From Cymodocea nodosa (taxonomy: Eukaryota > Streptophyta > Magnoliopsida > Alismatales > Cymodoceaceae), in contig JAZBRI010000010.1 of assembly GCA_036874045.1 (NCBI GenBank), positions 1,136,001 through 1,200,000 on the forward strand: 64,000 bases of DNA. The letters run 5' to 3'. Position 1 is the first letter of the stretch. Each line of letters starts with the position of its first letter. This document shows, piece by piece, positions 9,497-19,319 of the stretch. The notes under the pieces were generated by a model. The model searched no databases. It was not told the origin of the DNA and saw only the letters and a program-made list of their open reading frames with translations. The position numbers and the translations under genes were made by a program.

Positions 9497-10522
9497 ATGG
9501 CATATGCTTATGCTTAAAGATTTCTGAAACCTGTAATTAGCATATGTGAATTCTGCAATTCTGAAGGACACGACATTTCTGACTGTTTGAAATTGAGACA
9601 CTTATAGATTGTTAGATCCCATGAACAACAAATGAATTATCCTAAATATAATAGAGCCGAGTATGAGAATCCTATAGTTTACCCAATTGATGCTCAGTAT
9701 AGAATGTGTAATATGATGAGAGACACTGAAGTTTGGGATAGCTATGACAGACTAGAGCATAGCATAGAGCAAAATCTGGACAAACTGGAATACTTTGTGT
9801 GTCAACAACAAGAAGTCAACCAATTAAACTATAAGGAGGCATATTCAAAACCTAAACAAGATATAATTTACGAAACAGAAAAAACCATAAAGAAAATTGA
9901 TCAAAAATTGAATGCAATGAAATTAGATGATTTAGAACAAAAATTAAAAGCATTAGACGAAAATGCAATGAAAATACAAGTTATGCAACAGGACAATAAA
10001 AATTATAATGTTATAAACCTGCATAATTTACAAAATATACAGCAAACAGAAAAGACTAATGCAAGAGAATTTAAAGAATGCACTTTAAAACTAAAAACAA
10101 TTGAAGATCATAACCATGAAAATGATATACAAAAACATCATGAAGGTAACGAAAATCTAGAAGATGTATGTGTAACATTAAGATCTGGAATTGATATACC
10201 ACCAAGAACTCAAAATGAAAATGATATGAAGGTGGATAAGAGTAAAAATCAAAATGATAATGAAAATATCGCTGAAAATCTAGAAATCACTGAAGAACAA
10301 TCTGAATCTGCGAATGAAGCTAAAAATTATCAAACAAATCAACTAAAAGAAAAAGAGTCTTTGAAATCAAAATCTTTAGCACCCTATCCTGAAAGATTAC
10401 AACAAACAATACCTGAAAGACAAGAGAAAATTAGAGAAATTTTTGAAAAAGTACAAGTTAACATTCCTTTGTTAGATCTATTGCAGAAAATGCCACCTTA
10501 TGCTAAATTTCTTAAGGATTGA
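9497..10522 (+). pseudogene. Zinc-knuckle (NC) and gag-pro linker frame
   Basis: First frame after the PBS. From ATG 9497 the frame runs with stops at 9515 and 9605, then open from 9632 to 10522. It encodes a perfect CCHC knuckle, C-x2-C-x4-H-x4-C (CEFCNSEGHDISDC, 9545-9586), the nucleic-acid-binding motif of nucleocapsid. A long Lys/Glu/Asn-rich, probably coiled-coil region follows, then TLRSGIDIPP and PYPERL ... NIPLLDLLQKMPPYAKFLKD, which match the Athila linker between Gag and protease. The capsid domain that normally precedes the knuckle is absent here; it lies at 17976-19319. I chose 9497 because it is the first in-frame ATG upstream of the knuckle. The frame ends at a stop just after the linker motif, before protease. 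Confidence 0.8.
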
Positions 10523-10539
10523 TGTACTAAGAAAAGATA

Positions 10540-11508
10540 GCGAAAAGTTCTTAGAAAGGTCTTTTTAGCTTAGCAAAGTAGTTCCTTATTTCTGCCACAA
10601 ATTCCTAAAAGTTATCTGATCCTAGAATCCATGTTATATCATGCATCATAGGAAATACCATTCTAGAAAGAACTTTAATAGACTTAGGTGCAGGTATAAA
10701 TGTTATGCCAAGTGATATATTTGCATCCTTAGGATTAGAAGGCTTAACTCCTACTAGTACGGTTATTCAATTAGCTGATAGAAGTATAAGATACCCTAGA
10801 GAAAATATAGAGTATGTCTTAATTAAAATAAAAAATTTTATATATCCTATTGATATTGTAATTTTGGATTCCCAACAAATTAAGCATAAAAATAGTGATA
10901 CATCTTTAATTTTGGGGAGGCCATTTTTAGCAACATCAGGGGCTGTTATAAATTGTAAAACTAGAGTAATGAAGTTAGCATATGGTAATGAGGATACTCA
11001 ATTAAATATTTTCAAACCAGAAAGGTTTGAGGAGTTAGGAATGTCCTTACATACCATAGACTTTTTAGAGGATGAAAGAGATATGCTAGATGATGTAATT
11101 CAAGAAGAATTAAATAGGCAAATCAATTCTAAAATTTTAGAAGAAAGTGAAAGCATAAATATAGAAGGAGATCAGGAAGAAATTAATTTAAAAAATGATG
11201 ATGTTCAATTAGGAGCTCTAGCTTCTGATGGGCAGCATTTAGAATTAAAACATTTACCTCTTGAATTAACCTATATATTTCTGGAAGATAAACGAACCTG
11301 TCCAATCATTATTGCTTCAGATTTAAAAGAGGAACAAATAGCTAAATTAAAAGATGTAGTAAAAAGTTATAAAGAAGCAATAGGATGGACTATGACTGAT
11401 ATAAAAGGGTTAAGTTCAACTTTATCCTGTCACCACATATATTTAGAAGAGAATGCTAAACCTATTAGAATTCTTGATAGGACATTAAATCTAAACCGAA
11501 ATAGTTAA
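10540..11508 (+). pseudogene. Aspartic protease and start of RT (pol)
   Basis: Retropepsin-type protease that matures the polyprotein. In frame 1 the segment SCIIGNTILERTLIDLGAG precedes INVMPSDIFASLGL; the catalytic Asp is in DLGAG at 10681-10695, the Athila form of D-T/S-G. ADRSIRYPRENIEYVLIKI and LILGRPFLATSGAVI are the family's second core (ILGRPFL). The domain is followed by the acidic spacer and the beginning of RT (GWTMTDIKGLS...CHHIYLEENAKPI). The frame breaks at 11480-11508, where RT goes on in the next frame. The part before about 10640 is shifted relative to the linker frame. Confidence 0.85.
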
Positions 11509-12829
11509 ATGGTTAGATAATGATATAATTTATCCGATTTCTGATAGCTCGTGGGTTAGTCCAATCCATGTAGTTCCTAAGAAATCAGGATTAACAGTTA
11601 TTAGGAATGAAAGTCAAGACTTGATCCTTACTAGAATTCAATTAGGCTGGAGAGTATGTATAGACTATAGAAAGCTGAATGCTGTGACTAGGAAAGATCA
11701 TTTTCCCTTACCTTTTATAGATCAAATGCTGGAAAGATTAGCAAGGCAAGAATATTTTTGTTTCCTAGATGGGTATTCAGGGTATAATCAAATTCCAGTA
11801 GCATTAGAGGATCAAGAGAAAACAACTTTCACCTGTCCAAATGGAACTTATGCTTTTAAAAGAATGCCATTCGGATTATGCAATGCACCAGCTACCTTTC
11901 AAAGATGTGTATAGGGCATATTTACTAGAATGACTGAAGATTTTTTAGAAATATTTATGGATGATTTTACTGTATATGGCAACTCATATGAAGTGTGTTT
12001 AAGCAATTTAGACCAAATATTAAAACGTTGTGTGGAAAAAAATCTGATTTTAAATTGGGAAAAATGTCACTTCATGGTTAAACAAGGAATAGTCTTAGGG
12101 CATGTTGTTTCTAAAAAAGGGTTGGAAGTAGATAAAGCTAAAATAGAAGTACTATCTAATCTACCAGAACCTAAATCAGTAAAAGATATTAGATCATTTC
12201 TAGGACATGCTGGTTTTTATAGAAGATTTATTAAAGACTTTAGCAAGATAGCTAGACCTTTAACTAATCTATTAAAAGATGTTCCATTTAACTTTGATAA
12301 AAATTGCAAGGAAGCATTTTTCAGACTTAAGACTAGCTTAATTTCAACTCCTATAATTCAAGCACCTGATTGGAACTATCCATTTGAATTAATGTGCAAT
12401 GCTTCTGATTTTGCTGTAGGAGCAGTGTTAGAACAGAAGATAGAAAAATCTCCTAGAGTGATTCATTACGCAAGCAAAACTTTAAATGATGCTCAAGTTA
12501 ATTACACAACTACTGAAAAAGAATTATTAGCTGTTGTGTTCGCTTTAGAAAAGTTTAGATCATATCTGATTGGAGCTAAAGTAATAGTATACACGGATCA
12601 TTCAGCTCTAAAACATCTAATAAAGAAAAAAGAAACTAAACCTAGATTGATCCGATGGATATTATTATTACAAGAATTTGATCTAGAAATTAAAGATAAA
12701 AAAGGTTGTGAGAATCTAGTTGCAGATCATTTATCAAGATTAGAAATAGAAAAATCAAATATTGAAATTAAGGATAATTTTCCTCATGATGGACATCAAT
12801 GCAATGCCTTGGTATGTAGACATAGTTAA
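11498..12829 (+). pseudogene. Reverse transcriptase and RNase H (pol)
   Basis: Copies element RNA into DNA and degrades the RNA strand. In one frame it reads WVSPIHVVPKKSG, GWRVCIDYRKLNAVTRKDHF, DGYSGYNQIPVALEDQEKTT, PFGLCNAPATFQRC and the catalytic FMDDFTVYG (Asp pair at 11960-11965). SFLGHAGFYRRFIKDFSKIA and RNase H follow: CNASDFAVGAVLEQK, TEKELLAVVFALEKFRSYL, TDHSALKHL, with the D, E and D of the active site in place. The SGYNQI and MDDF-V-YG forms are Athila-lineage. One in-frame TAG (11912-11914) interrupts the fingers/palm; otherwise the frame is well kept. A shift near 12800 moves on to integrase. Confidence 0.93.
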
Positions 12830-17804: not shown

Positions 17805-17817
17805 TATATATATAAAA
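17805..17817 (+). promoter_or_regulatory. Candidate internal TATA box
   Basis: TATATATATAAAA, followed by CAGAATGTTATTTAC, lies 159 bp before the capsid Gag ATG at 17976. The identical 13-mer is kept in copy 2 at 61098-61110 with the same flanks. A GT dinucleotide in the context GGTATGT (17947) between TATA and ATG could be a splice donor. This suggests a second transcription unit for Gag and F-box; it is inference from sequence conservation. Confidence 0.5.
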
Positions 17818-17975
17818 CAGAATGTTATTTACGAGTTACCAGCACTTTTAAAAGAAAGGAGAAGGCATTGGAGGAACTGGAAGGAGAAGCAGTTGATTCA
17901 ACTTCATCCGACAACAAATATTTATAGAATGGAAAGCTTCAGACTGGTATGTAATTAATCTTCTGCTATTTATTT

Positions 17976-19319
17976 ATGAGCACATGGACTCGTTCTCTAA
18001 GCACTAAACAATTAGTAAGAACACCTACCTAGGAATTTTCATTGCAGAGGAGTACTGAAAAATTTTCTGAACTGAACTTTAACGAAATTCTTTAGGGTGT
18101 AGCTAACCTTTCTTTAAAAGAGAACATAGAGATGGTTGCTCCAGTAGAAAAACCATTAGCAGAGATTTTGTATCCTGAATTAATTGATGAACCTTCATGT
18201 ATTCGATTGCCAAACTTTGAGGGAGATAGGTTTGAACTGAAATCTAATTATATTAGTCAATTGCCACATTTTCATAGATTAGAAAGAGAGGATGCCTATT
18301 ATTTCCTTAGAGAATTTAACGAAGTTTGTCAAATGATGAAAATGCCGAACATGAGTATAGATGCTATTAAACTTAGATATATTCTTTTTTCTTTAAAAGA
18401 CACAGCTAAGAGATGGTTATATACTCTATCGCCTGATTCAATTTCTACATAGACTGAATTTTGCTCTGTTTTATTGGAAAAATATTATCTAACACATCAA
18501 ACGATTAAAAAAAAGAAAGAAATATTAATGTGTAGCCAAAAACAAGGTGAATCATTCTGGAAATATTTTGAAAGATTTAAAGATTTACTAACTCAATGTC
18601 CACATCATGCAATGAGTAAAGCACAATTAATAGGTATAATTATTGAATGTATAGATGTTTCAATGAAATCTTTATTAGAATCTACTTGTCAAAATGGATT
18701 TTTAAAATTATGTAGTGAAGAAGCATGGGCATATTTAGAAAACTTTGCAAAAAGAACTGCACAGTGGGAAAATTCGGCTGAAGCTATTGCAGATAAAAGA
18801 ATATTGCCAAGAGGAATGCATGAAATAGATTCCAATACTATGCTTGAGGTGAAATTAAATGAATTAACAAAGAAAATAGAAGAGTTATCATTAAATCAAA
18901 AGCTAGCGGAAAAGAATGTAAACATAAATGACTTAGACATTATTTATGCTAGAAACCAGAGAGATAACTTGGGAAATTCTTATCATCCTAATTGGAGAAA
19001 TCACCCGAATTTATCTTGGAGAAACAACAATTTCAAGGGAGGAGAAAATATAAATGAGAAGAACATAAGTTATGAAGTATTAATTGAACAAGGAGCTAGA
19101 ATAGAGAAATTAGAAAAGATAATCCAACAAGTAAACAATCATCTAGAATTTATATTTGGAAATGCTGCAATTCAAAATCAGAATGGAAATATATCACTTA
19201 GACAGAAGGAACCAATAGAAGTTAGACCTACTGGAGGATTGCCAATACAAGCTATACCTAATCTTGTCAATAGAACGGTTAATGAAATTGATGCCTCTTC
19301 TAGGAGGGCAACTGAATGA
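17976..19319 (+). pseudogene. Free-standing capsid-type Gag, downstream of pol (copy 1)
   Basis: Structural protein that would form the virus-like particle. One frame from ATG 17976 to 19319. It has the Athila Gag N-terminus (LYPELIDEPSCIRLPNFEG), then the capsid core FELKSNYISQLPHFH, EDAYYFLREFNEVC, IKLRYILFSLKDTAKRWLY, ESFWKYFERFKDLLTQCPHH and EEAWAYLENFAKRTAQWE, and finally NWRNHPNLSWRNNN and a coiled coil. There is no zinc knuckle; that is in the first frame of the element. Interruptions are point stops only (18030, 18090, 18450); 18450 is the Trp of S-x-x-W-T-E-F changed TGG to TAG. The final TGA replaces a CGA seen in copy 2, so the true end was further on. Gag after integrase is very unusual. 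Confidence 0.88.

Follow-up and report, generated by a model that had tools for sequence, protein, structure and literature searches.

Can a retrotransposon keep its capsid gene behind its integrase gene as a settled arrangement, or does such an order merely mark a single decayed copy? To our knowledge, the placement of Gag before Pol is a near-universal rule of long terminal repeat (LTR) retroelements, tied to the making of much Gag and little Pol. An element in the genome of Cymodocea nodosa raises the question; it lies in a stretch of 64,000 nucleotides (C10:1136001-1200000), referred to here as the window. An initial annotation had described in this element a front reading frame with a nucleocapsid (NC) zinc knuckle and no capsid, together with a complete capsid frame downstream of integrase, and had read the order as a circular permutation. 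Analysis of the window together with the host assembly (374.6 Mb in 28 contigs) confirms that the capsid-behind-integrase layout holds and is not the accident of one dead copy. The layout is spread through the family of the window element (family 1), it is present in two more families of the same host, and both open reading frames (ORFs) of the window family have evolved under purifying selection. We consider it probable that these are Athila-type Ty3/gypsy families in which gag has been split by way of a duplication, with NC and Pol encoded in front and the capsid encoded by a separately expressed ORF behind integrase.

Spanning 7166-24165 on the plus strand, the element (copy 1) is an LTR retrotransposon in complete form that looks old and inactive. 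Its 5' LTR (7166-9357, about 2.19 kb, with TG..CA ends) is 94.7% identical to the 3' LTR (21973-24165), which was recognized by this pairing and by its ends and flanks; the 5-bp flanks of the element, ATACG and CTACG, match at four of five positions. The primer-binding site (PBS) TGGCGCCGTTGCCGGGGA (9365-9382), a putative match to tRNA-Asp, which is the Athila primer, and a polypurine tract (21958-21972) were assigned from the sequence. The protease (PR) region spans 10609-11505 (PF13650, E 0.0053, under the cut-off), followed by reverse transcriptase (RT) and RNase H (RH) at 11495-12826 (PF00078, PF17917 and PF17919), where a stop breaks copy 1, and by a broken integrase (IN) with approximate limits 12850-14110 (PF00665, E 1.6e-8; tblastn of P0041 and P0092). 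Most of the pol proteins listed from plants and metagenomes show 63-73% identity. LTRs, PBS, polypurine tract and the position of RT-RH ahead of IN are all those of a Ty3/gypsy element, whereas the order GAG-PROT-RT-RH-INT, given for Ty3/gypsy in the part of the REXdb paper considered here (PMC6317226), is broken by a capsid that sits behind INT. The same part of that source describes an additional RNase H, placed between RH and IN, as the mark of the Tat lineage; no second RNase H was found over 12750-13112, the interval scanned (13113-13288 lay outside the scan), and this single RH region agrees with Athila, for which no additional RNase H is expected.

The front ORF begins (9497-10519) with an ATG, a CCHC knuckle, a spacer, the motif LRSG and the gag-pro linker. 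The knuckle CEFCNSEGHDISDC lies at 9545, 180 bp past the PBS and in frame with ATG 9497, with one in-frame stop ahead of it and one behind it in copy 1. It is the sole occurrence of C-x2-C-x4-H-x4-C in the six frames of the window, while 20 mononucleotide shuffles produced 0.05 occurrences on average and one at most. Searches by tblastn with the gag proteins P0001, P0003 and P0005 detected no capsid between PBS and protease in copy 1; their capsid matches in the window fall only at 18051-19244 and 61361-62425, the latter in a second, partial copy (copy 2). A single-sequence fold of the front ORF, in which a hidden capsid was sought, consisted of helices only, at a confidence too low to be informative (predicted local distance difference test score 58, predicted template modelling score 0.20). 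The annotation of a front frame with knuckle and linker and without capsid is upheld. Over 165 amino acids (aa), a protein from a 762-bp contig in ENA (P0130) shares 87% identity with the front ORF, so that the window family or a near relative occurs in a public sample.

The capsid ORF (17978-19319), interrupted by stops in copy 1, follows 3.9 kb after the end of the IN frame at about 14.1 kb, and its match to PF03732 (E 2.1e-9) agrees with the annotated knuckle-less capsid with its own ATG. Over 305 aa it is 39% identical to P0003, an open relative; a search of PDB sequences with the capsid gave no match, and scans of IMG/VR and GTDB for relatives confirmed none. ATG 17978 is kept in 10/10 aligned rows. 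An alternative start at 17930 would make use of an intron at 17948-18050 bounded by a GT..AG pair, which is not required, since the listed capsid frames of 454 aa span this candidate intron. The gag motifs that mark Athila include a WRNHPNFSW-type block and the succession of LRSG, linker and PR, which the element shares. In alignment, the ORF behind pol in the window family lacks a knuckle; apart from the capsid it holds the WRNHP block that elsewhere follows the knuckle and a stretch similar to that preceding LRSG. The knuckle is also absent from two of nine database relatives (P0004 and P0007, elm; linker present), and P0003 lacks its first Cys, a sign that Athila-type gag may tolerate the loss of this motif.

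In order to follow the layout across the host genome, the best candidates of each first look were scored: 130 of 7323 for the front ORF and 135 of 6529 for the window-family capsid (window copy included in both), 150 of 4640 for PF03732, and 86 of 10173 for P0004, a conventional elm gag-pro of 497 aa with LRSG at 378 and the linker from 420. Front-ORF matches are 89-100% and capsid matches 90-100% identical. The position of the capsid in other copies, which the initial annotation had left to a genome search, comes out as in the window. When the two lists were paired by place, 24 pairs lay within 30 kb; among the matches listed, front ORF and capsid share a strand in 22 of them and the capsid follows 6095-10995 bp downstream; the spacing is 8433-8928 bp in 14 of these (8845 in the window copy), and no pair has a capsid within 2 kb upstream of the front ORF. 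The capsid of one pair stands at -3100, and its locus has a further capsid at +8910; another pair has its members on opposite strands, 12 kb apart. At C11:302467-315340, one front ORF lies between two same-strand capsids 12 kb apart, possibly in tandem elements.

Thirty front-end loci (L010-L039, the window copy among them) were taken with 1.5 kb upstream each, and a capsid in front was found in none of them, so that a deletion of the 5' region specific to one copy is rejected. LTR, PBS and front ORF align unbroken in 29 of these loci, the thirtieth breaking solely at a short GAATT repeat, and the CCHC pattern is intact in 23/30. At the other end, ten window-family capsid loci contained no knuckle. 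Nine of the ten are collinear with the window from 17404 or earlier through the capsid and the F-box gene behind it, as is the stretch from the end of the preceding ORF X through capsid and F-box gene in 6/6 further loci; the annotation's view that the capsid block is not a nested, unrelated element is thus supported. Six fetched matches of P0004 proved to be window-family copies, and none of the 86 scored reaches the linker, all stopping by residue 386. As a conventional gag-pro would be expected to outscore these matches, its absence from the host genome is likely, rather than proven, the first look being loose. That the placement is ancestral to the family, as annotated, stands on these genome loci. 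Copy 2, from which this had been argued, lacks pol and a 5' end; it is silent on the position of the capsid relative to IN and shows only the order X-capsid-F-box.

The same arrangement is met outside the window family. L001-L008, the eight top-ranking matches to PF03732 in the host genome, lie outside the window family, and all have IN directly upstream of the capsid on the same strand. Of the 150 scored PF03732 matches, 21 coincide with scored window-family capsids; ten extra gag loci (ranks 12-150), hand-picked out of the 48 matches that are 279-282 bp long, comprised eight with IN upstream and two window-family copies. In all, IN stands directly before capsid in 16/18 sampled gag loci, the other two being these window-family copies. 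The open gag frame begins about 0.2-0.5 kb past the end of the IN frame in L001, L002, L004 and L008, and no window-family LTR lies between the two. L001-L008 fall into two families: best-segment aa identity of IN is 54-62% to the window's, 66-69% between families 2 and 3 and at least 87% within them, the corresponding values for capsid being 45-48%, 59-64% and at least 77%. In phylogenetic trees, capsid and IN each separate the three families from the outgroups used (support 0.98 and 0.89, respectively). Five 3-kb stretches near the expected 5' ends of family 2 and 3 copies contained the PBS as an exact word in 2/5, the knuckle in 4/5, the linker or its start in 5/5 (tblastn matches in 3) and a capsid in 0/5. 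By arithmetic, the knuckle precedes the capsid domain by 4870, 4870 and 4874 bp in three family-2 copies and by 4912 bp in one family-3 copy. The front ORF of family 2 carries the knuckle CTKCMLFDHENDEC, and in two of three copies (L002 and L008) the rear gag carries a knuckle as well, CEGCGLDNHSIDQC, followed by the WRNHPNFSW block and a stop just short of the LRSG place. An intact rear knuckle pattern was not found in the other six of the eight loci, which include L007 of family 2, nor in any of the ten extra loci.

Both window-family ORFs are under purifying selection. The ratio of nonsynonymous to synonymous substitution rates (dN/dS) is 0.27 for the front ORF over 30 copies, nine of which are stop-free, and 0.35 for the capsid ORF over nine copies, one further locus having been dropped by the coverage rule; 14 of the best 135 capsid matches, counting the piece from the window, are stop-free inside. 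In the comparison of copies 1 and 2 the capsid has diverged by 7.8% with no indel in 1269 bp, at a dN/dS of 0.36 and with a deficit of nonsynonymous changes (P 0.006).

Expression of a capsid ORF in this position is where the sequences ahead of it come in. LTR-like palindromic modules of the form GTTGAGTTA-NNN-TAACTCAAC precede the 3' genes: one array stands before X (14507-14607), one before the capsid (17464-17688) and one before the F-box gene (19376-19445), with their LTR counterpart at 8986-9095. Aligned to this part of the LTR (to 8986-9085 in the case of X), the three arrays score 42, 40 and 31 against shuffle maxima of 18, 17 and 16; of four array controls, three are near chance and the untranslated region control reaches 20.3 against 19.5. 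The window contains the palindromic motif 85 times, where 11.8 occurrences are expected. A TATA-like box (17805-17817), part of a putative capsid promoter, and an array stand ahead of the capsid in both window copies, and TATATATAT is found at the corresponding place in 12/15 other window-family capsid loci. A separate capsid mRNA is plausible, as far as can be inferred from such elements. The array before the capsid is also the place at which copies 1 and 2 change their relationship: their divergence drops from 17.2% to 8.3% at 17611 (interval of 3 log-likelihood units, 17442-17756; twice the log-likelihood difference 95), inside the array, and the two copies are mosaics that switch there. 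The synonymous divergence (dS) of X between the copies (14635-17012 against 58358-60685) is 0.40 and exceeds that of the capsid, 0.16, so that the 3' genes have different histories.

How might this order have come about? A second, complete gag would have arisen behind pol by duplication, with template switching between co-packaged RNAs as the probable mechanism. The copy in front would then have lost its capsid, and the rear copies of the window family and, for the most part, of family 3 would have lost the knuckle, which some family-2 copies retain. The knuckles at both ends in family 2 suggest that gag was probably duplicated and then partly lost at each end, and, taken together with the rear WRNHP block and the stretch like that before LRSG, make duplication with unequal loss a better fit than a cut and rejoining. 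A second gag behind pol, followed by loss of the front capsid and repeated loss of the rear knuckle, would be the simplest history of these sequences. The front ORF would be read from the genomic RNA just past the PBS, from the NC knuckle through linker, PR, RT and RH to IN, and the capsid would be translated from an RNA of its own, in the window family through an internal promoter (array and TATA box) or a spliced RNA. The amounts of capsid and NC-Pol could then be set separately, with Pol-joined NC binding RNA and the second ORF supplying capsid.

The circular permutation of the initial annotation, taken literally, is a one-step process: a normal element would have formed a circle, of RNA or DNA, that opened again at a point between the capsid and the knuckle, leaving the capsid at the end. 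It would explain why the window family has its knuckle only in front and its capsid only in the rear; the cut does not predict, however, that the rear ORF retains the WRNHP block and the stretch like that before LRSG, nor that two family-2 copies have a rear knuckle besides the front knuckle of their family, and we regard this origin as very unlikely. A single recombination could instead have joined a gag-less pol element to a pol-less gag element similar to TR-GAG or to a pol-less Athila. Such a chimera has precedents in the pol-less gag/env Athilas and the recombinant lineages reported for Arabidopsis in the portion of the source considered (PMC2410132), and the divergence switch of the two window copies inside the array that precedes the capsid points in the same direction. 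As the layout is common to three families that both capsid and IN separate from the outgroups, the join would have to be old, and we think a chimera somewhat unlikely; it differs from the duplication that we favour mainly in the source of the second gag.

The front could also be defective or parasitic, NC-Pol elements having lost their capsid and carrying the rear ORF as a passenger whose capsid role is gone. BARE-2 reportedly lives without Gag. Among 63 Retand clusters, GAG is missing from seven, and GAG together with AP from two more, in the part of the study considered (PMC11963269). A passenger is hard to reconcile with a capsid that shows no indel between the window copies and dN/dS values of 0.36 and 0.35, and the P0004 search yielded, among its 86 scored matches, no conventional gag-pro that could supply capsid, which leaves this explanation quite unlikely. 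That the capsid of another element was inserted behind IN, or that the assembly is at fault, might be suspected in a window so rich in nested and inverted LTR pieces; yet the junctions are the same and the spacing similar in many loci on many contigs, and the LTRs bound the whole unit, which makes an artefact exceedingly improbable. The nested-element reading, in particular, is refuted for the window family by these shared junctions.

Several observations weigh against a split and separately expressed gag. All four genome searches cover the best-scoring share of their first-look candidates, and the hand sampling of ten gag loci left out 102 PF03732 matches of 276 bp. Twenty 1.2-kb stretches taken at a fixed offset of +8.4 to +9.6 kb from every sixth of the best 130 front-ORF matches (ranks 2-116) touched the capsid ORF in only seven cases, with most of the ORF in four; six lay just past the capsid, one in X, two in the 3' end and LTR and two in another LTR, and two were unmatched. 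All nine capsid copies of the dN/dS comparison contain stops, and purifying selection is also known for ORFs of non-autonomous Athilas, from the part of that study considered (PMC2410132). The argument for duplication rests on few copies, intact knuckles in the rear gag being found in only 2/18 loci, both of family 2. The trees conflict in their branching, capsid joining families 2 and 3 (0.995) and IN joining families 1 and 2 (only 0.71); the outgroup pieces in the IN tree are 26-78 aa long, and the capsid outgroups P0001-P0003 are proteins alone, without the layout of their elements. As to the promoter, TATATATAT is displaced in L064 and absent from its place in L086 and L088, and array and TATA words occur in none of eight IN-capsid spacers of families 2 and 3, so that the promoter idea is at best specific to the window family.

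The capsid is flanked by two other genes of the 3' region. ORF X (15105-17010), broken in copy 1, is Transposase_32-like, with PF20167 under the cut-off; with stops read through, copy 1 gives E 5.9e-5 and copy 2 gives E 2.2e-6. The F-box gene (19510-20240) has an internal deletion of about 405 bp in window copy 1, found in 0/15 other loci, and is longer in copy 2 (62800-63885), where PF00646 matches with E 2.3e-10. This captured gene is present in 15/15 other loci checked, with 359-361 codons aligned, and is stop-free in two of them; its dN/dS of 0.53 over 16 rows is weak evidence that it may be in use. Copy 2 (58152-64000, plus strand) consists of an LTR piece that meets X at about 58355, followed by array, capsid and F-box gene. 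At both 58152-58400 and L009:3991-5079 the X leader is joined to a fragment of LTR that extends to about 8058-8110, with differing junctions (by eye for L009), and inspection by eye showed no splice donor for the LTR-X junction of copy 2. Outside the element, the window holds a gene at 36681-37349 on the minus strand, presumably a host gene like a small basic helix-loop-helix factor of the IBH1 type.

Known systems share parts of this organization. TR-GAG elements, the gag-less BARE-2 and some Retand elements place Gag and Pol functions on different units; in copy 1, by contrast, PR, RT, RH and IN lie inside the same LTR-bounded unit as a PF03732 capsid, which sits between pol and the 3' LTR, so that both functions are found within one element that is neither a pol-less Athila nor a gag-less parasite. 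Gmr1-type Ty3/gypsy elements have a permuted pol in which integrase has moved, likewise a change of domain order in Ty3/gypsy; here it is the capsid that leaves gag. Spumaviruses make Gag and Pol from separate RNAs, but they retain gag at the front and use a spliced RNA for Pol, unlike a capsid behind IN. Among classified lineages the element is closest in kind to Athila as outlined in the part of the REXdb paper considered, sharing an RT-RH-IN block in which no second RNase H was detected, long LTRs and an extra ORF behind pol (PMC6317226). As in the Arabidopsis Athilas, where gag modules were swapped among families by recombination, the ORFs are under purifying selection; those Athilas carry gag, gag and env, or a recombinant gag/pol/env, and, in the portion of the study considered, none has gag behind pol, unlike the families described here (PMC2410132). 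Full-text searches of open-licence PMC papers (CC0, CC BY, CC BY-SA), judged by title and start of abstract and with subscription papers outside their scope, gave no description of a capsid-behind-IN layout. REXdb, by the part of its description considered, removed elements with unexpected domain order or multiple domain copies as likely mispredictions, and such a survey would be unable to report this one (PMC6317226).

Going beyond the three families, we tentatively entertain, just short of expecting it, that a whole plant clade, perhaps the bulk of the Athila-type elements of this genome, is "Pol first". In the window family the arrays that separate X, capsid and F-box gene might then act as promoters and as crossing-over points; the ratio of Gag to Pol might be set by transcription instead of frameshift or read-through, and the knuckle, supplied with Pol, might be dispensable in the structural protein. 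A high-copy clade that breaks the order of Gag before Pol would mean that the rule is not needed, and would provide a natural experiment on the position that NC has to occupy. Surveys that discard unexpected domain orders can, moreover, lose real families.

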